A stretch of 37,137 nucleotides of DNA, taken from Bacilli bacterium. Its GTDB lineage: Bacteria; Bacillota_I; Bacilli_A; RF39; UBA660. Where the stretch lies: NCBI GenBank assembly GCA_017484125.1, contig JAFUTV010000020.1, forward strand, positions 1 through 37,137, in the 5' to 3' direction. The notes under the pieces were generated by a model, which worked only from the letters and a program-made list of their open reading frames with translations, searched no databases and was not told the origin of the DNA. A program made the position numbers and the translations under genes. This document shows, piece after piece, positions 92 to 25,344 of this stretch; positions within the stretch are counted from its first letter, which is position 1, and each line of letters starts with the position of its first letter.

Positions 92-316
92 TTGGAATCT
101 TATAACCTTTGCATATTTTCTCCCACCACAGGTAATAGCGGAGTAATAATGGGAGAATTTTTAGTAAGTAAAAAAGGTATAGGATATTTAATTATATATG
201 GTACACAAGTATTTAATTTAGATTTAGTTTACTCAGGAATACTTATTTTAATTATTCTTTCTTATATAATTTATAAACCAATAAAAATATTAGAAAACAA
301 AACCAAGAACAATTAG
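92..316 (+). pseudogene. C-terminal remnant of an ABC transporter permease
   Basis: From about residue 18 the reading frame contains GVIMGEFLVSKKGIGYLIIY, followed by a last membrane segment (about residues 43-63) and a short basic tail. This matches the C-terminal end of SsuC/TauC/ThiX-type binding-protein-dependent permeases, just after the EAA loop. Such permeases are normally about 250 residues, so most of the protein is missing. The open frame runs back only to a stop at 50-52. The residues before GVIMGEF do not look like a permease, so the upstream part has been replaced. A TTG at 92 could start a 74-residue product, but no good ribosome-binding site was seen. It is the only plus-strand gene remnant in the window. 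Confidence 0.5.
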
Positions 317-328
317 TTCTTGGTTTTT
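301..328. terminator. Bidirectional intrinsic terminator
   Basis: A perfect 10-bp stem (301-310 with 316-325, AACCAAGAAC/GTTCTTGGTT) has a 5-base loop. It is followed by five T on the plus strand and by TTTTGTTTT on the minus strand. It contains the stop codons of both the plus-strand permease remnant and the minus-strand signal peptidase, so it can serve both. Confidence 0.75.
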
Positions 329-1314
329 GGTAATGTTAAACTATCATCTAAAGAATTTAGTTTAGATATATTAACCATTACTTTATTAACATCAAATTTT
401 TCTTCTTCATCTTTTACTTTTTCAATATTATTAAGTACTTTATTCATGTCAAAATCATTAATGTTATCATTAATAATGGCAGGTTCAATATTTTTTACAA
501 CGCCTAAATTTTCTTTACTAAAATATTCATCTTCGCCATCTTTTTGAACTTCATTAGTAATAAATGGTGTAATATTTTCTTTAGTGTTATCATCAAAAGT
601 GTTTACTGGTTCTATAATAGGTCTAACTGCAGCAACACCAATATACTTTTGCTTTAAGTCTTTCTTTAAATTATCTGTTTTATTTTTTAATTGGATATTT
701 TCTTCAGGTGCCTTAATAGATTCTTCAACTTTTTGTTTAATACTTGATAATCTAACAACTTTAACAACATCGTATATTACAACAATTAATGCAGGAATTA
801 AAAGTACAAATAACAATCCGCCTTTTGATTGAAGTAAAAACTGAACATGACCAAGTAAAGGTATTTTAAACATTACTTTTCCTAAAATATGATCACTGCT
901 TACCAAAGCAGAATCAGCTATTGCATTATTATCTCCTTGAGTTCTAAATTTAACACCATTATCAGTAGTAATAACAGACTTAACTCTATGTGTGATTGTT
1001 AACCCTTCACCTAAAGTACTTGTTGAAACATAGGTTATTATATCTCCTTCTTTAATAGTTGATGGATCTGTTACTTTCCTAGTAACAACAACATCATATA
1101 CTTTAATTGCAGGTTCCATTGATGGCGAAATAATTGTATATAACGATACTGCTGGTTCATAATTTTTTCCTTTAATTTCATATATTTTTGAACTTATGAC
1201 ATAATAAATTAAAAGTAAAGCAAGTAAAACTAAAAACACTAAAACAACCCAAGATATTATCTTGGTTATTATTTTAATGATAGGATTTTTAAAAAAATTC
1301 TTTACTTGTTCCAC
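313..1314 (-). CDS. sipW: SipW/ER-type signal peptidase I with a long cytoplasmic tail
   Basis: This is a membrane serine endopeptidase that removes signal peptides outside the membrane. The first membrane segment is at about residues 19-40. The catalytic Ser65 lies in SPSMEP. The second catalytic position is His109 in THRV, where the bacterial type has Lys, so this is the ER/archaeal/SipW class. The QGDNN box (126-130) is present. A second membrane segment spans about 167-187. A charged tail of about 145 residues follows, ending in two related stretches, FDMNKVLNNI and FDVNKVMVNI. Typical SipW proteins are near 190 residues, so the tail is unusual. The start is GTG with an AGGGG site upstream. 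In Bacillus, SipW processes TasA-like fibre proteins. Here the gene directly follows a giant surface-repeat protein, its likely substrate by context. The symbol indicates class, not proven orthology. Confidence 0.85.
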   Translation of the reverse strand: MEQVKNFFKNPIIKIITKIISWVVLVFLVLLALLLIYYVISSKIYEIKGKNYEPAVSLYTIISPSMEPAIKVYDVVVTRKVTDPSTIKEGDIITYVSTSTLGEGLTITHRVKSVITTDNGVKFRTQGDNNAIADSALVSSDHILGKVMFKIPLLGHVQFLLQSKGGLLFVLLIPALIVVIYDVVKVVRLSSIKQKVEESIKAPEENIQLKNKTDNLKKDLKQKYIGVAAVRPIIEPVNTFDDNTKENITPFITNEVQKDGEDEYFSKENLGVVKNIEPAIINDNINDFDMNKVLNNIEKVKDEEEKFDVNKVMVNISKLNSLDDSLTLPKTKN

Positions 1315-1339: not shown

Positions 1340-1368
1340 ATTATAAGATAAATTAATTACAATATCAA
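1340..1368 (-). promoter_or_regulatory. SigA-type promoter for the signal peptidase gene
   Basis: The minus strand reads TTGATA (1363-1368), a 17-base spacer and TATAAT (1340-1345), a near-perfect vegetative promoter about 25 bases before the GTG. With the terminator at 1411-1442 it makes the peptidase a separate unit, so its level can differ from that of the giant protein. Confidence 0.75.
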
Positions 1369-1410
1369 TTAATATTAGATTCTTTTTCTTTATTTGACAT
1401 GTTTTTAACA

Positions 1411-1442
1411 AATAAAAAATTGAGATTAATTATCTCAATTTT
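1411..1442 (-). terminator. Intrinsic terminator of the giant repeat gene
   Basis: An 11-bp perfect stem (1416-1426 with 1432-1442) with loop TAATT is followed on the minus strand by a run of T. The TGA stop of the repeat gene lies inside the stem. Confidence 0.8.
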
Positions 1443-4400
1443 CTACTTGACCTGCTTTAACTAAAATATCAGTTTTAAATACTTTATTCATATCTACATT
1501 TTGGTTTTCACCAGTTTCTTTGAATTCGTATCTAATTTCATATCTATTTTCAGAATTAGCATTTACAATTTCATTTTCAATTAACGCTTGACCATTATAT
1601 GGTAATGTTGCATCAGATACAATTACTTCACCATTTCTAATTAAAGTATATTTTAAATTATTTGTAGTAAATGTATTAGTAACATTTATCCATTCTAAGC
1701 TATATGAAATATTAGCTGGGTTAGAATTCTTTATTGAAAACGATTGTGATCCACTCCAACCTGGGACTATATTTCTTCCATTAATTGAATTAATATCACC
1801 AAGTGAAATATAATATGTTCCTTCTTCAACATCACAATACATATCGCATATTCCATCACCATCTGTATCGCAATATTTGTCACATACTCCATCATCATTT
1901 GTGTCACAGTTTAAGTCGCATTTGCCATCACCATCTGTGTCACAGTTTAAATCGCATTTACCATCACCGTTTGTATCACAGTTTAAATCACATTTGCCAT
2001 CGCCATTTGTATCACAGTTTATATCGCATTTGCCATCGCCATTTGTATCACAATTTATATCACACTTACCATCGCCATCTGTATCACAGTTGAGATCACA
2101 TTTGCCGTCTCCATTAGTGTCACAGTTTATATCGCATTTACCATCGCCGTCTGTGTCACAGTTTAAATCGCATTTGCCATCACCATTAGTGTCACAGTTT
2201 AAGTCACACTTACCATCGCCATCTGTGTCTATATTAGTATCTGGCTTACCATCACCATTAGTGTCACAATTTAAATCGCATTTACCGTCGCCGTCTGTGT
2301 CACAGTTTAAATCACATTTACCATCACCATCTGTGTCTATATTAGTATCTGGTTTGCCATCACCATCTGTGTCACAGTTTAAGTCACATTTTCTATCACC
2401 ATCTGTATCGCAATTTAAATCGCATTTACCATCACCATCTGTGTCACAGTTTAAATCGCATTTACCATCGCCATCTGTATCACAGTTAAGATCACAAACA
2501 CCATCACCATTAGTATCGCAATTTATATCACACTTACCATCACCATCTGTGTCACAGTTTAAATCACATTTGTTATCGCCATCTAAATCGATATTTAAAT
2601 CTGCTTTGCCATCATCATCAGTATCGCAATTTATATCACACTTACCATCACCATTGGTATCACAGTTTAAATCACATTTACCATCGCCATCTAAATCACA
2701 GTTTAAGTCACACTTACCATCGCCATCTGTATCTAAATTAGTATCTGGTATTTTATCACCATTAGTATCGCAATTTAAATCACATTTTCCGTCACCATTA
2801 GTATCGCAATTGTAATCGCACTTACCATCACCATTAGTGTCACAGTTTAAATCACATATACCATCACCATTGGTATCAATATTAGTATCTGGTTTGCCAT
2901 CTCCATCTGTATCACAATTTAAATCACACTTATTATCACCATTAGTATCAATATTTACATCAGGTAATCCATCACCATTGGTATCGCAATTGTAATCACA
3001 TTTACCATCACCATTGGTATCACAGTTTAAATCACATTTGCCATCGCCATTTGTATCACAGTTTAAATCGCATTTGCCATCGCCATTAGTATCGCAATTG
3101 TAATCACATTTGCCATCGCCATTTGTATCACAATTTAAATCACATTTTCCGTCACCATTTTTATCACAGTTTAAATCGCATTTGCCATCACCGTTTGTGT
3201 CGCAATTTATATCACACTTACCATCACCATTGGTATCACAGTTTAAATCACATTTGCCATCCTTATTCGTGTCGCAATTTAAGTCGCACTTGCCATCGCC
3301 ATTGGTGTCACAGTTTAAGTCGCACTTTCCGTCACCATTGGTATCGCAATTATAATCACATTTGCCATCACCATCTAAATCGCAGTTCTTTGAACACTTA
3401 TCAGGTTCTGGCTCAGGTGTTGGTTCTGGCTCTGGTTCTGGTTCAGGCTCAGGTTCTGGCTCAGGTGTTGGCTCTGGTGTTGGTATTGGATTATATAAGC
3501 AATTATAATCACAAATTCCATCACCATCTATATCAACATTAAGATTTGGGAATCCATCACCTGTTGTATCACAATTTAAATCACATTTGCCATCACCATC
3601 TAAATCTTGATTCATAAGATTTTCATCAGGTTTACCATCATTATTGGTATCACAGTTATAATCACATTTATGATCACCATTTGAATCTAAATTTAAATCT
3701 GGTATTCCATCACCATTGGTATCACAGTTTAGATCGCATTTGCCATCGCCATTTAAATCAATATTTAAATCTGGTTTTCTATCTTTATTTGTATCACAAT
3801 TAATATCACAAATTCCATCAGAATTATTATCACAATTTAAATCACATACCCCATCACTATCAGTATCAACATTTCTATCAGGTATTCCATCACCATTGGT
3901 ATCACAATTTAAATCACACTTTTTATCACCATCTAAGTCTTGATTCATCAAGTTAAGATCAGGTTTGCCATCACCATTGGTATCACATGCATAATCACAA
4001 ACTCCATTACCATCAACATCAATATTTAAATCTGGTACATTATCACCATTTGTATCAACATTAATATTTGGTTTGCCATCACCATTAGTATCAAAGTTTT
4101 TATCAGGTATTCCATCACCATTGGTATCACAATTTAAATCACAAACTCCATCATTATCAGTATCTTGATTAATTAAATTTTTATCTGGTTTACCATCACC
4201 ATTGGTATCGCAATTAAATTCGCATCTTCCATCACCATTTTTATCAATGTTTAAATCAGCAATTCCATCACCATTGGTATCTAAATTAGTATTAGCTTTA
4301 CGGTCTCCATTACTATCACAATTATATTCACATTTTTTATCATGATTTGGATCACAGTTAACATCACATTTACCATCGCCATTGGTATCAATATTTATAT

Positions 4401-5367
4401 TTGGCTTTAAATCTCCAGTAAAATCAAGATTTAAATCAGGCATTCCATCACCATTGGTATCACAGTTTAAATCACATTTACCATCACCATCTAAATCTTG
4501 ATTAGCTAAATTAGTATTAGGTATGTTATCACCCGTAATATCACAGTTAAAGTCACATAACAAATCGCCATCATAATCAAGGTTAATGTCAGCTTTTCCA
4601 TCACCATTTGTATCAATATTTATATTTGGTTTTACATCACCGTTTTTGTCAATATTAATATCTGGTTTTCCATCACCATTAGTATCACAATTTAAATCAC
4701 ACTTACCATCACCATTTGTATCTTGATTAATTAGCTTAGTATCTGCTTTCCCATCACCATTTGTATCGCAATTAAAATCACAAATATTATCACCATTAAC
4801 ATCAATATTTAAATCTGCAATTTTATCATTATTTGTATCAATATTAATGTCTGCTTTACTATCATCATTTATATCACAATTTAACTCACAATAACTTAAA
4901 TTATGAACATAAACATTTCTATCAGGAAATCCATCGCCATTTGTATCACAGTTTTTAGTACAATATCCATATCCATAAACATCAACATTAATTAAATTAG
5001 TATCTGGTTTTCTATTTCCTGTTGTATCAATATTAAACATTTTAATTCTATTACCATTAAAATCTAAATTTAAATCAGGAATTCCATCACCATTTGTATC
5101 GCAATTGATATCGCAATATCCATCACTATTAGTATCAACATTTAAATCTGCAACTCCATCACCATTTGTATCAATATTTAATTCACTCTTTTTATTATTT
5201 AAAATTAAATAATAACCAAATAATAATACTAATAAAATTATTAAAAAGAATAAAAATATTAAAATAATAATGCGTCTTTTCTTTTCTTTTTCTTCTTCAT
5301 TATTATTGTTATTATCAACAAATTTATTATTATAATCAAATTCATTTAAGACATTTTCTTCATTCAT
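1435..5367 (-). CDS. Giant membrane-anchored Asp/Cys-rich repeat protein
   Basis: This 1310-residue protein has five parts. Residues 1-32 are an Asn/Glu-rich cytoplasmic head ending KEKKRR. Residues 33-56 form one membrane segment, so the rest should be outside. Residues 66-623 hold 45 repeats. Residues 624-662 are a Pro-Glu linker. Residues 663-1178 hold 43 more repeats, and 1179-1310 form a C-terminal domain. Repeats are 12 residues, of the type DTNGDGKCDLNC. They carry the Dx[ND]xDGxxD signature of calcium loops in EF-hands, dockerins and thrombospondin type 3 repeats. Six units are 15 residues. The C-terminal domain starts with VPGWSGSQSFSIKNSN and looks like a beta-sandwich similar to TasA/camelysin-type SipW substrates (inference). 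An AAGGAGGAG site precedes the ATG. It is cotranscribed with the small membrane protein 16 bases upstream. No AxA cleavage site follows the membrane segment, so it may stay anchored. Function is unknown; a calcium-stiffened surface fibre or adhesin stalk is my inference. Confidence 0.85.
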   Translation of the reverse strand: MNEENVLNEFDYNNKFVDNNNNNEEEKEKKRRIIILIFLFFLIILLVLLFGYYLILNNKKSELNIDTNGDGVADLNVDTNSDGYCDINCDTNGDGIPDLNLDFNGNRIKMFNIDTTGNRKPDTNLINVDVYGYGYCTKNCDTNGDGFPDRNVYVHNLSYCELNCDINDDSKADINIDTNNDKIADLNIDVNGDNICDFNCDTNGDGKADTKLINQDTNGDGKCDLNCDTNGDGKPDINIDKNGDVKPNINIDTNGDGKADINLDYDGDLLCDFNCDITGDNIPNTNLANQDLDGDGKCDLNCDTNGDGMPDLNLDFTGDLKPNINIDTNGDGKCDVNCDPNHDKKCEYNCDSNGDRKANTNLDTNGDGIADLNIDKNGDGRCEFNCDTNGDGKPDKNLINQDTDNDGVCDLNCDTNGDGIPDKNFDTNGDGKPNINVDTNGDNVPDLNIDVDGNGVCDYACDTNGDGKPDLNLMNQDLDGDKKCDLNCDTNGDGIPDRNVDTDSDGVCDLNCDNNSDGICDINCDTNKDRKPDLNIDLNGDGKCDLNCDTNGDGIPDLNLDSNGDHKCDYNCDTNNDGKPDENLMNQDLDGDGKCDLNCDTTGDGFPNLNVDIDGDGICDYNCLYNPIPTPEPTPEPEPEPEPEPEPEPTPEPEPDKCSKNCDLDGDGKCDYNCDTNGDGKCDLNCDTNGDGKCDLNCDTNKDGKCDLNCDTNGDGKCDINCDTNGDGKCDLNCDKNGDGKCDLNCDTNGDGKCDYNCDTNGDGKCDLNCDTNGDGKCDLNCDTNGDGKCDYNCDTNGDGLPDVNIDTNGDNKCDLNCDTDGDGKPDTNIDTNGDGICDLNCDTNGDGKCDYNCDTNGDGKCDLNCDTNGDKIPDTNLDTDGDGKCDLNCDLDGDGKCDLNCDTNGDGKCDINCDTDDDGKADLNIDLDGDNKCDLNCDTDGDGKCDINCDTNGDGVCDLNCDTDGDGKCDLNCDTDGDGKCDLNCDTDGDRKCDLNCDTDGDGKPDTNIDTDGDGKCDLNCDTDGDGKCDLNCDTNGDGKPDTNIDTDGDGKCDLNCDTNGDGKCDLNCDTDGDGKCDINCDTNGDGKCDLNCDTDGDGKCDINCDTNGDGKCDINCDTNGDGKCDLNCDTNGDGKCDLNCDTDGDGKCDLNCDTNDDGVCDKYCDTDGDGICDMYCDVEEGTYYISLGDINSINGRNIVPGWSGSQSFSIKNSNPANISYSLEWINVTNTFTTNNLKYTLIRNGEVIVSDATLPYNGQALIENEIVNANSENRYEIRYEFKETGENQNVDMNKVFKTDILVKAGQVEN
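1834..3381 (-). repeat. Coding tandem array of 43 near-uniform 36-bp units
   Basis: This encodes residues 663-1178, 43 consecutive 12-residue units with no length variation. In 37 units Cys sits at both positions 8 and 12; the other six have neither. Most units are DT[ND]GDGKCD[LIY]NC. The DNA repeats every 36 bases with mostly synonymous changes (for example TGTGAC versus TGCGAT). The uniformity suggests recent expansion or gene conversion. Confidence 0.9.
3499..5172 (-). repeat. Coding tandem array of 45 diverged 36/45-bp units
   Basis: This encodes residues 66-623. Thirty-nine units have 12 residues and six (units 5, 12, 18, 27, 33 and 42) have 15, with a three-residue insertion ending in LINQ, LANQ, LMNQ or LINV. 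Nineteen units carry the Cys8/Cys12 pair. Units near the membrane are the most degenerate, for example unit 8, which has lost its Asp ligands. This is the older-looking half of the array. Confidence 0.9.
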
Positions 5368-5383
5368 TTTAAATAACTCCTCC

Positions 5384-5629
5384 TTATTTCAACTCAATTT
5401 CTACAACATTAGATGAACTATTAGTATTATTTTGATTTTCATATTTTTGCTTGGCCTTTATATAATTAGTAACTGACAATATAGCACTTGTTAAAACAGC
5501 AAGAAAAAGTATTACTGAAGCAACATTTAATAATATTTTAAAAAACTTATTTTTTCTCTTATCGTGGTCTTCAATATTACTTATTTTTTCTTCAAATTCT
5601 TTTTTTATATCTACATTAACATTGTCCAT
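5384..5629 (-). CDS. Small single-pass membrane protein before the giant repeat gene
   Basis: The product has 81 residues starting MDNVNVDIKKEF. The head is charged (about 1-32), one membrane segment lies at about 33-55, and a hydrophilic Asn/Ser-rich tail ends VVEIELK. A longer frame begins at 5665, but that start has no ribosome-binding site and overlaps the promoter. The chosen ATG at 5627-5629 has an AGGATG element upstream and lies just after the predicted transcription start. The gene is first in a two-gene operon with the giant protein 16 bases downstream, so it may help that protein's membrane insertion, anchoring or processing. That is inference from position. I do not recognise the family. 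Confidence 0.7.
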   Translation of the reverse strand: MDNVNVDIKKEFEEKISNIEDHDKRKNKFFKILLNVASVILFLAVLTSAILSVTNYIKAKQKYENQNNTNSSSNVVEIELK

Positions 5630-5655
5630 AACAAAGACACATCCTATTCTTAATA

Positions 5656-5684
5656 AATATACCATAAAAGAGATATAAAGACAA
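5656..5684 (-). promoter_or_regulatory. Promoter of the small-membrane-protein/giant-repeat operon
   Basis: The minus strand reads TTGTCT (5679-5684), 17 bases, then TATATT (5656-5661). It lies between the rpsR terminator and the chosen start at 5629. It has four of six matches at the -35 and five of six at the -10, so it is moderately strong. Confidence 0.55.
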
Positions 5685-10936: not shown

Positions 10937-11683
10937 TTATTCTCCTGTCAATATTTTATATCCAGTTTTAGTAACCAAAACAGTGTGTTCAAAATGTGCA
11001 CTTGGTTTTCCATCGGCAGTAACAATTGTCCAATCATCATCTAACATATAAACGTGTTTTGTACCTAAATTAAGCATAGGCTCAATTGCAAATGTCATAC
11101 CTGCTTTAAGAGTCAAACCAGTTCCTTTTTCACCAAAGTTTGGAATATCTGGATCTTCGTGTAATTCTGTACCAATACCATGTCCACATAACTCTTCAAC
11201 AACACCTAAGTGATGACGATGAGCATATGTTTCAATAGCATTAGATATATCACCAAGTTTTGCACCTTCCTTAACCATTTTTAGGCCTTCCATAAGTGCA
11301 TCCTTAGTATTTTTTATTAATTCTTCTTTTTCTTTTGTTATTGTTCCAACAGGATAAGTAGCAGCAGAATCAGAATGATAACCTTTATAACTCATACATA
11401 TATCAAGTGAGACAATATCACCATTTTTAATTTTTCTTTTGCCACCTATTCCGTGAACAACTTCGTCATTAACTGATATACAAATATTACCAGGATATCC
11501 TTCATAACCAAGAGATGAAGATATACAACCATGACTAGTTATAAATTCACCTGCAAGTTTATCAAGTTCACCAGTAGTAATACCGGGTCTTAATTTGCTT
11601 TCTAAGTATTTATGACATAAATAGTTAATATGCCCAGCATATTTCATTAATTCTATTTCTCTATCACTTTTTATACTAACCAT
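10937..11683 (-). CDS. map: Methionine aminopeptidase, type I
   Basis: It removes the initiator Met from new proteins. The 248-residue pita-bread fold shows the two metal-ligand Asp residues D94 (SLDI) and D105 (YHSDSAATY), the His of CGHGIG, the Glu of AIEPM and the last Glu of AHFEHT. There is no N-terminal zinc extension. Its ATG overlaps the adk stop by one base, so the two are translationally coupled. Confidence 0.95.
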
Positions 11684-12333
11684 TAACTTATAACCCTTTC
11701 AATTTCATTTATTATATCATCAACATTTTGTGTTGCGTCAATAACTTTTAATAAATCTTTATCTTTATAGTAATCTATAATAGGTTTTGTTTGTTCCATA
11801 TAAGTGTCATATCTAATCTTAAATGTTTCTTTAGTATCATCACTTCTTGAAACAAGACTAGTACCACAATCATCACAGATACCATCTTTTTTAGGCTTTA
11901 ACAAAGTTGAATACTTATTATATCCTTTATTACAATTAGGACATGTAAGTCTTCCTAGAGTACGATTTAACGCCTTTTCAAAATCAATTTCTAAGTATAT
12001 TACAACAAAATCACTAACTTGTAAATCAACAAATAATTGATCTAAAGTTTTAGCTTGTGCAATATTTCTTGGATAACCATCAAGTATGAATAACTTGTCC
12101 TTATCCATATTTTTTAATTCTCTTGATAATAACTCAAGGACAATATCATCACCAACTAATTTACCACTATCAATTAATGATGCAATTTTTTGTCCTAAGT
12201 CATCACCCTTCATTTTTGCTTCTCTAAGTAGATCACCCGTTGATATATGTTTGTATCCAAACTTATTCTTTAGAGCTTCACTACATGTGCCTTTACCAGC
12301 AGCAGGTGGAGCAACAAAAATTACATTTTTCAT
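11683..12333 (-). CDS. adk: Adenylate kinase with zinc-binding lid
   Basis: It interconverts AMP, ATP and ADP. The P-loop is APPAAGKGT near residues 8-16. The AMP site has STGDLLR and DGYPRN. The lid carries CPNC and CDDC, a four-Cys zinc site with 18 residues between the pairs, typical of Gram-positive enzymes. At 216 residues it is the long-lid form. It overlaps the secY stop by 4 bases (ATGA), so the genes are coupled. Confidence 0.95.
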   Translation of the reverse strand: MKNVIFVAPPAAGKGTCSEALKNKFGYKHISTGDLLREAKMKGDDLGQKIASLIDSGKLVGDDIVLELLSRELKNMDKDKLFILDGYPRNIAQAKTLDQLFVDLQVSDFVVIYLEIDFEKALNRTLGRLTCPNCNKGYNKYSTLLKPKKDGICDDCGTSLVSRSDDTKETFKIRYDTYMEQTKPIIDYYKDKDLLKVIDATQNVDDIINEIERVIS

Positions 12334-13592
12334 CTTCTTCTATATCCCTTCTTATAGCTTCTACTTCTAAGACTACTTTCAATTTGTTTGTTAGTTTCAA
12401 TTGCAACACCAACAACAATTAATAATCCAGTTCCTCCAATAGTTACAGAACTTGATAGTCCAGATAACTTAGAGAATAAAATTGGAAGTATTGCTATAAT
12501 AACAAGTAATATAGATCCAACAAATGTTATTCTTCCAAGTACTTTAGTAATATAATTAGCAGTATCAGTACCTGGTCTAATGCCTGGTATATAACCACCA
12601 TTCTTATTTAAATTCTTACTCATTTCTTCAGGATTCATTTGAAGTAATGTGTAAAAATATCCAAAGAACATGATTAATAATACATAAATAACCATACCAG
12701 TCCAAGAAGTATAATTAATATAATTATTAACAAAATCAATTGCTTCTTGATTATTAATTAAATTAACAATAGTAACTGGAATAGTTATTAATGTTGATGC
12801 AAATATTACTGGAATAACATTTGCAGCATTTAATTTAATTGGTAAGAACGATTGTTGAGCACCATAGGCAACATTTGTTCTATTTGAATACTGAATAGGT
12901 ATTCTTCTTTCAGCAAGTTGTGTATAAACAATTCCTATAATAATAGCTAAATCAACTAATACAAATATAATAAATAATATAATACCAACTACATTTGTAT
13001 AAGTTCCACTTAATATTAATTCATTAAATGCAGTTGTAAATATTGATGGCATAGATTGAATAATACCAGCCATAATTAGTAATGACATACCATTTCCTAT
13101 ACCCTTTTGAGTAATTTGATCACCCATCCAAATTAAGAAACATGTACCAGCAGTCATAACTAATGTTGTTTTAAGTATTTCAACTGATGACATACCATTC
13201 ATATAAGCAATAGTAAGTACATAAGCTTGAATAAATGCAAATATAATTCCTAACCATCTAGTTATCTTATTTATTTTTTGTCTTCCTGTATATCCTTCTT
13301 CTTTTAATTCCTTAAAGTATGGAATAATATCCATTTGAAGAAGTTGGGTAATAATTGATGCAGTAATGTATGGTGATACACCAAGTGCAAATATAGAAAA
13401 TGACTTTAATCCACCACCAGACATTAAGTTAAATATTTCTAAGAAACCAAGTTCTTGATATATTGTATTAGCCCAAGGAATTGTTATAGTAGTACCAAAA
13501 GCGAATACTCCTAAACAAAATAATGTAAAATATATTCTTTTTCTTAAATCTTTATTAGATGAACTAAATAGTTGCTTTATCATAGCAAACAT
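12330..13592 (-). CDS. secY: Protein translocase subunit SecY
   Basis: SecY is the membrane channel for secreted and membrane proteins. The 420 residues hold about ten membrane segments. Visible landmarks are the plug-region FNLMSGGGLKSFSIFALGVSPYI, read here in two parts (FNLMSGGGLKS and FSIFALGVSPYI), QMDIIPYFKEL, and the C5-loop RTNVAYGAQQSFLPIKLN region. A GAGGTGA site supports the start at 13592. It sits between rplO and adk. Confidence 0.95.
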   Translation of the reverse strand: MFAMIKQLFSSSNKDLRKRIYFTLFCLGVFAFGTTITIPWANTIYQELGFLEIFNLMSGGGLKSFSIFALGVSPYITASIITQLLQMDIIPYFKELKEEGYTGRQKINKITRWLGIIFAFIQAYVLTIAYMNGMSSVEILKTTLVMTAGTCFLIWMGDQITQKGIGNGMSLLIMAGIIQSMPSIFTTAFNELILSGTYTNVVGIILFIIFVLVDLAIIIGIVYTQLAERRIPIQYSNRTNVAYGAQQSFLPIKLNAANVIPVIFASTLITIPVTIVNLINNQEAIDFVNNYINYTSWTGMVIYVLLIMFFGYFYTLLQMNPEEMSKNLNKNGGYIPGIRPGTDTANYITKVLGRITFVGSILLVIIAILPILFSKLSGLSSSVTIGGTGLLIVVGVAIETNKQIESSLRSRSYKKGYRRR

Positions 13593-24551: not shown

Positions 24552-24578
24552 TAAAAAAATAGCAATTATATTGCTATT
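24552..24578 (-). terminator. Terminator of spo0A
   Basis: An 8-bp stem AATAGCAA/TTGCTATT (24571-24578 with 24558-24565), loop of 5, is followed by a run of T on the minus strand. It touches the spo0A stop codon. Confidence 0.75.
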
Positions 24579-25344
24579 AATTATAATTATTTAATTTATA
24601 TTTATTTTCATTTAAATTTATTCTATCAGCAAGTGTTGCTAAAAATTCAGAATTAGTTGGTTTAGCCCTATCAAAATCTACGGAGTGTCCAAATATTTCA
24701 TCCATCAAATCATAATCACCCCTATTCCATGATACTTCAATAGCATGACGAATTGCTCTTTCAACACGAGAAGAAGTAGTATTATATTTATCAGCAATAG
24801 CAGGATACAATTTTTTAGTAATACCACCAATATATATAGGATTATCATACATCATCATGATAGCATCCCTAACATATTGATAACCTTTAATATGAGATGG
24901 CATGCCAAGATCATGTAATAATTTACTTATTTTATCTATAACAAAATTATCAACAAATTCATATTCTAAATAGTTTATATTACTCGCATCAATAATTCTT
25001 TCAGCTAGTAAACTATTATCTATACTCTTTAATAAATAGAAAGAAATATTATATTGATGTAATAATTTTATCATATTAGGGTTATTATACTCACTATAAA
25101 TAATTACCTTACATTTAATATTATTGTCATCTAATTTTTTTAAAATACCTAATCCATCAACCTTAGGTAATATTGGATTTAAAAGTAAAACATCATAATC
25201 GTTACTATTTTTTAATAACTCATCTAATGCTTCTTTTCCATCGCTACAAGTTTTCTTAATACAAATACTGCTTTGGTTACTAAAATACTGCTTAACTTCT
25301 TTAATAGTAGATTCATCACTATCTACCATAAATACATTAACCAT
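24577..25344 (-). CDS. spo0A: Spo0A-like response regulator lacking the phosphoacceptor Asp
   Basis: Spo0A is the master regulator of sporulation and stationary phase in Firmicutes. Residues 1-120 form the receiver domain and about 140-250 the Spo0A-specific DNA-binding domain, with GMPSHIKGYQYVRDAIMM and the recognition part NTTSSRVERAIRHAIEVSWN, then KPTNSEFLATLADR. In the receiver the aligned position of the phosphorylated Asp is Asn56 (VLLLNPILP, codon AAT at 25177-25179). The acidic pair is D8-S9-D10 rather than Asp-Asp. The switch Ser (IIYSEY) and the Lys (LLKS) are kept, but the Pro after Lys is Ser. It therefore probably works without normal phosphotransfer. The DNA-binding half is highly conserved, so it is still functional. 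It has its own promoter and terminator; no kinase or Spo0B/F is near. Confidence 0.9.
   Translation of the reverse strand: MVNVFMVDSDESTIKEVKQYFSNQSSICIKKTCSDGKEALDELLKNSNDYDVLLLNPILPKVDGLGILKKLDDNNIKCKVIIYSEYNNPNMIKLLHQYNISFYLLKSIDNSLLAERIIDASNINYLEYEFVDNFVIDKISKLLHDLGMPSHIKGYQYVRDAIMMMYDNPIYIGGITKKLYPAIADKYNTTSSRVERAIRHAIEVSWNRGDYDLMDEIFGHSVDFDRAKPTNSEFLATLADRINLNENKYKLNNYN

Follow-up and report, generated by a model that had tools for sequence, protein, structure and literature searches.

A membrane-anchored repeat protein with a TasA-like terminal domain as a candidate attachment point for SipW-dependent fibres in uncultured Bacilli

The stretch of DNA analysed here (the window) is contig JAFUTV010000020.1 of assembly GCA_017484125.1, 37,137 nucleotides from a Bacilli bacterium of the RF39 group, i.e., the whole of contig C23 of the 1.18-Mb draft genome G000, which is 89% complete. 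Its minus strand carries a module of three genes, encoding an 81-residue single-pass protein, a 1310-residue membrane protein made largely of Asp-rich repeats (the giant), and a SipW-type signal peptidase. In the giant, a cytosolic N-terminus and one transmembrane segment are followed by two repeat blocks and a C-terminal domain homologous to SipW-dependent, TasA-like fibre subunits encoded in the same genomes. We propose, with a confidence that we would place midway between doubt and acceptance, that the giant is a membrane-anchored, length-variable, Ca2+-binding stalk that presents a TasA-type acceptor domain to one end of a TasA-like fibre.

Results

A terminal domain resembling TasA

The C-terminal domain of the giant (residues 1179-1310; 1438..1833, on the minus strand like all module coordinates below) is predicted to be all-beta. 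A search with profile A1, built from ten terminal domains, found a second class of protein in the same genomes, ~200-250 residues long and with N-termini such as MEKKNVVFLTVLAIATLLTAIVGTTFAFFTA; these TasA-like subunits carry SipW signals (VGTTFAFFTA or VGATFAYF). When the terminal domain was compared with the aligned SipW-type subunits, hhalign returned a probability of 99.7% (E 4e-26) over 124 columns. Matches to Peptidase_M73 (TasA/camelysin) fell below the gathering cut-off of 22.5 bits, both for the window domain (15.0 bits, E 0.022) and for that of the relative L034 (20.7 bits, E 4e-4). Among three subunits scanned with this model and with TIGR04088 (SipW-dependent signal), that of L040 alone passed, with 27.2 bits for Peptidase_M73 and a score above the TIGR04088 cut-off, the G000 subunit lying below the cut-offs. 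One subunit from the same family of genomes matched BsaA (TIGR04090) at 31 bits, below the cut-off of 60. In the control genomes, Peptidase_M73 matched B. subtilis only. Direct sequence searches of the PDB with the terminal-domain and subunit profiles gave chance matches only.

An AlphaFold2 model of the last six repeat units and the terminal domain had a predicted local distance difference test score (pLDDT) of ~90 within the domain. When Foldseek's 1000 best PDB chains were re-aligned to it, the TasA fibre subunit 8aur was the top row (Z 7.9 over 128 of ~129 residues, 19% identity, model residues 77-204 against TasA 42-235), and TasA monomers scored Z 7.0 and 6.9. The Z score and the chain of sequence matches together make a persuasive case that the domain is TasA-like. 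A preliminary description of this DNA had proposed a SipW-type fibre system and had named an unrelated intracellular fold as a result that would tell against it; the TasA likeness supports the system and departs from any such fold.

In TasA, residues 28-38 form the donor strand, which inserts into the next subunit, and P62 lies within the conserved protomer interface (PMC9674648, PMC10151520). The structural alignment begins at TasA residue 42, past the donor strand, which has no counterpart in the giant's domain, and a Pro at the place of P62 (equivalence by hand alignment) is invariant in 16 of 16 aligned homologues. Together these two features suggest that the acceptor side has been kept and that the stalk stands in the donor strand's place. 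Because the window protein also lacks a SipW-cleavable signal motif, we do not class it as a polymerising fibre subunit. The earlier suggestion that the giant itself builds the fibre thus finds no support, TasA-like subunits with proper SipW signals being encoded elsewhere in the genome.

The membrane segment and the stalk

The gene for the giant (1435..5367) is preceded by a good Shine-Dalgarno sequence, AAGGAGGA. A hydropathy scan of the protein found a single hydrophobic segment (residues 33-51, mean hydropathy 3.6) behind the sequence KEKKRR, and no second one. This region (residues ~29-56; 5200..5283) is without a SipW-type cleavage motif, as seen by comparison with relatives carrying GATYSY or GTTFSY. 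The genome has sortases, yet the 1310-residue sequence contains no LPXTG and ends in a folded domain, and we rejected sortase-linked anchoring.

A position-weight scan found 87 non-overlapping repeat units with the consensus DTNGDGKCDLNC, which with one degenerate in-phase unit (residues 153-164) makes 88; this count was read from a metagenome-assembled genome, and the copy number is provisional. The autocorrelation of the repeat is 0.59 at lag 12, and the giant contains 114 Cys and 284 Asp. The N-terminal block (residues 66-623; 3499..5172) consists of 46 in-phase, heterogeneous units with a recurrent three-residue insert (xNQ). It is followed by a Pro-Glu-rich linker (residues 624-662; 3382..3498) and by a C-terminal block (residues 663-1178; 1834..3381) of mostly Cys-type units. 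The type II membrane protein with 88 units, Pro-Glu linker and C-terminal beta domain of the preliminary description was thereby confirmed. Within the N-terminal block (window 3850-4850, minus strand) the xNQ insert after each sixth or ninth unit also sets a higher-order period (75 or 111 residues); a 15-residue spacing is present in other stalks as well.

The consensus unit occurs in 11 copies at the protein level that are encoded by 10 distinct DNA versions, and there is no exact DNA repeat of at least 60 bp. This synonymous divergence, with the lack of long exact repeats, makes a recent expansion of the DNA, or an obvious assembly artefact as the source of the repeats, unlikely. The ratio of non-synonymous to synonymous differences between units (pN/pS) was 0.31 overall and 0.17 in the C-terminal block, indicating that the units are under strong purifying selection. 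Neither Pfam nor NCBIfam has a model for the stalk protein. Matches of the whole giant to Filamin, PARP, SGP, ClfA/B and SdrC/D were all compositional and were rejected; for MSCRAMM Sdr/Clf, the score was 281 bits against a cut-off of 999, a compositional match to SD repeats.

Repeat chemistry

The giant contains 65 copies of Dx[DN]xDG, compared with a mean of 2.7 (maximum 10) in 500 shuffled sequences. This is a known linear Ca2+-binding motif, strongly biased to extracellular proteins (PMC3123361). The stalk therefore probably binds calcium, as had been suggested earlier, a reading drawn from sequence alone.

Across 31 homologous stalks, Cys at positions 8 and 12 of a unit occurred together 302 times and singly 7 times, against 120 joint occurrences expected if they were independent, although the units are related and a p-value from this count is no clean probability. 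In Cys-free units, the pair is almost always Pro or Ala at position 8 with Ile, Leu or Val at position 12. This joint presence or absence argues for a contact between positions 8 and 12 within one unit, and points to a disulfide or metal pair that may be interchangeable with a hydrophobic contact.

EF-hand and FG-GAP models matched the repeats through DxDGxxD only. FG-GAP scored above its cut-off for one relative's repeat piece (a stretch occurring in L037), but the match came from DxDGxxD alone, and since the period is 12 rather than ~60 residues we rejected a beta-propeller. AlphaFold2 models of 16 repeat units alone were too poor for a fold search or geometry (best pLDDT 61, the other four 34-44). 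The closest likeness is to thrombospondin type 3 repeats and other proteins with Dx[DN]xDG motifs (PMC3123361), i.e., tandem, extracellular, Cys-containing motifs. Unlike those repeats, the stalk units have a strict 12-residue period, their Cys8 and Cys12 are jointly present or absent, and Pfam listed no thrombospondin type 3 model (TSP_3 or TSP3_bac) for the giant or for pieces of 5-7 units. The stalk units would define a calcium-repeat family without an existing model.

Conservation with SipW and fibre subunits

The giant is present in all four congeners. The order rpsR-small gene-giant-SipW, whose recurrence in relatives had been proposed as a check, is identical in G000 and three of them (G002, G003 and G004), and in the fourth the locus is interrupted by a contig end. 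All 31 giants (31/31) have one N-terminal transmembrane segment, a variable stalk and a conserved terminal domain; beyond the congeners, this plan holds in ~20 genomes of the family. A sample of 296 genomes from across the class gave strong matches in the window's family only. Stalks range from ~105 units (L089) down to none; L034 has a Pro/Lys/Glu linker instead, L040 has other domains, and L097 and L101 have a short spacer. In the uncultured Bacilli L072 and L075-L080, the stalk proteins form a second branch, in which the cytosolic part ahead of the membrane segment is longer by ~95 residues, and no SipW of the module's clade was found within the flanks.

A SipW of the same clade lies no more than two genes from the giant at 20 of 24 assessable loci and in 12 of 14 genera; in the exceptions, g21 and g62, SipW is located elsewhere in the genome. 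Giant and SipW co-occurred in 21 of 193 genomes, against 3.1 expected (p 4e-21), and in 14 against 1.6 expected (p 5e-15) without the genomes used to build the profiles; as the genomes are related, these p-values overstate the association. TasA-like subunit genes adjoin the giant in ~10 other genera. Where they do, a protein of 152-183 residues is encoded 3' of SipW (L037:7584-8120, L040:3457-3915, L092:3146-3682, L094:1921-2448, L096:7233-7784, L098:4272-4745, L102:4216-4764). A membrane segment lies at its N-terminus, its C-terminus (e.g., LMWMDYETGNEMQGKSLNYSFEL) resembles the last strands of a TasA-like domain, and it gave no Pfam or NCBIfam match.

The window SipW is an ER-type (endoplasmic reticulum-type) signal peptidase I of 333 residues, whose gene (313..1314) lies outside the interval 1340-5684 covered by the preliminary description. 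It scored 91.3 bits against TIGR02228 (cut-off 51.85) and 105 against the Bacillus equivalog NF046067 (cut-off 190), and is thus related to that equivalog but outside it. An alignment with nine relatives has 40 invariant columns. PSMEP, THRV and [TK]xGDNN (TQGDNN in the window) are invariant or nearly so, which fits the Ser/His (not Lys) pattern with a conserved Asp box; from what is known of the family, these are taken to be the catalytic motifs. The cytosolic tail (316..747) is indeed long, as described earlier, but this length is the norm for the SipW clade of the module rather than unusual. SipW tails diverge freely (window 316-330, L032, L033, L034, L035, L037, L040, L092, L094, L097, L100, L106), but most of them hold the motif [D/E]-x-hydrophobic-x-LPK-x-K, often right at the C-terminus; the window tail ends in LPKTK. 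This motif is possibly a docking site for a cytosolic partner. A terminator scan placed a terminator 3' of SipW at 299..327.

The small protein and transcription of the module

With a profile of the small proteins (A5; the 81-residue window copy is encoded at 5384..5629), the best-scoring sequences outside that group were N-termini of giants from other genera, i.e., those of G189 (41 bits, E 2e-10), G186 (32) and G024 (27), background starting at 26.5 bits. The profile also matched an open reading frame of ~70 codons directly upstream of the giant in G209. The similarity (KxxFEEK followed by the transmembrane segment) spans the cytosolic part and goes beyond the membrane helix alone, and fused giants were without a separate small gene where this was checked. 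Judged by these profile matches, the small protein copies, as a separate product, the anchor module that is part of the giant in other genera; this ties the small and giant genes together functionally. We also considered a processed, TapA-like donor peptide: GAIFSY stands at the membrane exit in G002 and G004, but the window copy has no clear site (TSAILSV), and this reading is no more than an idea.

On the minus strand, the three genes follow rpsF-ssb-rpsR. A promoter-like site upstream of the small gene (5656..5684, TTGTCT-17-TATATT, with an extended -10) has 9/12 matches and was identified by consensus only. At the stop codon of the giant, a hairpin with a T-rich tail (1409..1449; 18 pairs, -18.5 kcal/mol, z -7.1) is a likely intrinsic terminator, although it was absent from the output of the separate terminator scan. 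Between it and SipW lies the best promoter match in the region (1340..1368, TTGATA-17-TATAAT, 11/12). With this hairpin and promoter, SipW is apparently transcribed separately, and the small gene and the giant look like one transcription unit. These signals bear out the proposals that the small gene opens the giant's operon and that SipW has its own promoter.

Neighbouring genes and related loci

An ABC transporter (periplasmic-binding protein, ATPase and permease, of the nitrate/taurine/thiamine-precursor type) lies next to the module in L032, L034, L093, L100 and L106; in the window its sole remnant is a permease tail at the contig edge (92-316, plus strand). The window also encodes a Spo0A-like response regulator (24577-25344, minus strand), with a receiver domain and a C-terminus resembling that of Spo0A. 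In B. subtilis, Spo0A acts above the tapA-sipW-tasA operon.

Contig C20 of G000 carries a second SipW locus (L061:4118-4834 and 11676-12815), encoding a SipW of 379 residues with an N-terminal membrane extension and its own putative substrates (256 and 858 residues). The gene for the TasA-like subunit is ~7 kb away, and its locus shows synteny in G003 and G004. Some relatives (G004, with 15-18 copies, G209, G062 and G104) encode 10-18 TasA/M73-like proteins, many of ~500 residues with SipW-type signals, which suggests large repertoires of fibre or surface proteins. In G181, a TasA-like domain match (C35:40597-40980; 74 bits) lies inside an open frame of 5628 residues, another giant surface protein.

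Discussion

We envisage that the N-terminus of the giant would stay in the cytoplasm and that its one membrane helix would hold the protein. Ca2+ would be bound by its ~88 Dx[DN]xDG units, which would make up an extended tether, and either a Cys8-Cys12 pair or a Pro8...Ile/Leu12 contact would close each of them. The tip would be a TasA-type beta-sandwich that has kept the acceptor side of a fibre subunit and lacks a donor strand of its own. The module's SipW would cut the signals off the true TasA-like subunits, and these, once matured, would assemble by donor-strand exchange. One subunit would insert its donor strand into the terminal domain of the stalk, so that the end of the fibre is held on the cell.

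Several observations weigh against this proposal. In the window genus no subunit gene adjoins the giant, that of G000 being on contig C20, so the pairing of stalk and subunit there is inferred from other genera. Two relatives have the terminal domain just ~20-70 residues above the membrane, too short a distance to cross the wall. The Z score of 7.9 is middling for an all-beta fold, being below 8 and close to the values of unrelated beta-sandwiches. Several giants outside the window genus carry SipW-like motifs (GATYSY, GTTFSY) at the membrane segment, and some may be cleaved. Finally, TapA, the known initiator, works in reverse, i.e., by donating a strand.

The possible cleavage of some giants bears directly on the best-placed alternative, in which the giant, too, is cut by SipW, where its membrane segment ends, and then released as a long linker or minor subunit in or between fibres, like TapA or CapP. 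Many giants of other genera do end this segment in GATYSY, GASFSY or GTTFSYF, resembling the VGATFAYF of the subunits, the SipW gene adjoins, and TapA and CapP, two known accessory proteins, undergo processing and are secreted. In the window genus (proteins of 1310 and 813 residues) and in g62 the motif is gone, however, the corresponding sequences being LLFGYYLILNN, ILLCVFLYRYN and IFIGYKLFGG; moreover, 22-26 strongly hydrophobic residues behind KKRR, together with a long cytosolic N-terminus, are typical of an anchor. Cleavage and release, which the preliminary description had allowed for the terminal domain, are therefore unsupported for the window proteins and possible for other genera, and as a general account we consider this alternative unlikely.

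We regard as rather unlikely the view that the giant stands by itself on the surface as an adhesin or spacer, its TasA-like domain being reused for ligands on a host or neighbour, with no role in fibres. Gram-positive adhesins commonly raise a binding domain on a tandem Asp-rich stalk, the repeats are matched by NCBIfam MSCRAMM Sdr models (by composition only and far below cut-off), and the lack of adjacent subunit genes in the window genus fits this view. The linkage and co-occurrence of SipW do not, since the peptidase would have no other role for an uncleaved adhesin, and a stand-alone adhesin leaves this linkage unexplained. The adjacent subunit genes in ~10 genera also count against it, as does the inclusion, among the most conserved positions of the domain, of the Pro matching the protomer-interface Pro of TasA. 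That function resides in the repeats, acting as a Ca2+ or metal store or as a wall-spanning spacer, with the terminal domain as a mere cap, is very improbable, because in spite of its 65 motifs and the strong purifying selection on its units the stalk is the least conserved part, varying from 0 to ~105 units and being replaced or nearly absent in L034, L040, L097 and L101, where the membrane segment and terminal domain persist.

Several points were missing from the preliminary description, i.e., the identity of the terminal domain, the subunit genes of other genera, the small protein as an anchor copy, and the dispensability of the stalk in some relatives. Even in Bacillus, little is understood of how TasA-type fibres are attached to the cell, and the module offers a testable answer for how fibres are held in gut Bacilli of a large, uncultured family. 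It predicts a polarity, the membrane end being the acceptor end, and proposes a role for proteins unrecognised by general databases. More tentatively, the TasA-type fibres of the family as a whole might end in a cell-membrane protein, rather than merely being shed into the matrix. Such a protein would combine a stalk of variable length, built of a new 12-residue Ca2+ unit whose Cys8-Cys12 and Pro8...Ile12 closures are interchangeable, with an acceptor-only TasA tip and an anchor module that is either fused or separate. If so, it would provide the first example, in a Gram-positive-type bacterium, of a donor-strand-exchange fibre whose acceptor-side end is integrated in the cytoplasmic membrane.

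SipW/TasA fibre systems are known in kind, but our literature searches returned nothing relevant on this architecture or on TasA/SipW systems in Tenericutes or RF39-type bacteria, and no account was found, in the literature available, that combines a membrane-integrated stalk with an acceptor-only TasA domain and a detachable anchor module. The SipW-BsaA system of Clostridium perfringens (PMC7395162) likewise has a SipW operon and subunits, BsaA, that polymerise without sortase; its accessory proteins BsaB and BsaC, unlike the giant, are not reported as membrane-anchored repeat stalks. The CalY/TasA fibres of Bacillus cereus are also sortase-independent, with an accessory protein, CapP, tying assembly to the cell surface (PMC13082335). 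In the part of that account available, CapP is processed, secreted and held at the wall by a disordered C-domain, and neither a transmembrane stalk nor a TasA-type terminal domain is reported for it. The TasA-SipW-TapA system of Bacillus subtilis (PMC9674648, PMC10151520) shares with the module a dedicated SipW, subunits of the TasA fold, which the terminal domain probably matches, and an accessory protein encoded with SipW. No TapA homologue turned up, although no search was aimed at TapA. TapA is small and secreted and gives a donor strand, whereas the giant starts with a cytosolic segment and a transmembrane helix followed by Asp-rich units, and the acceptor-type domain on the long Dx[DN]xDG stalk of this membrane-anchored protein has no donor strand.

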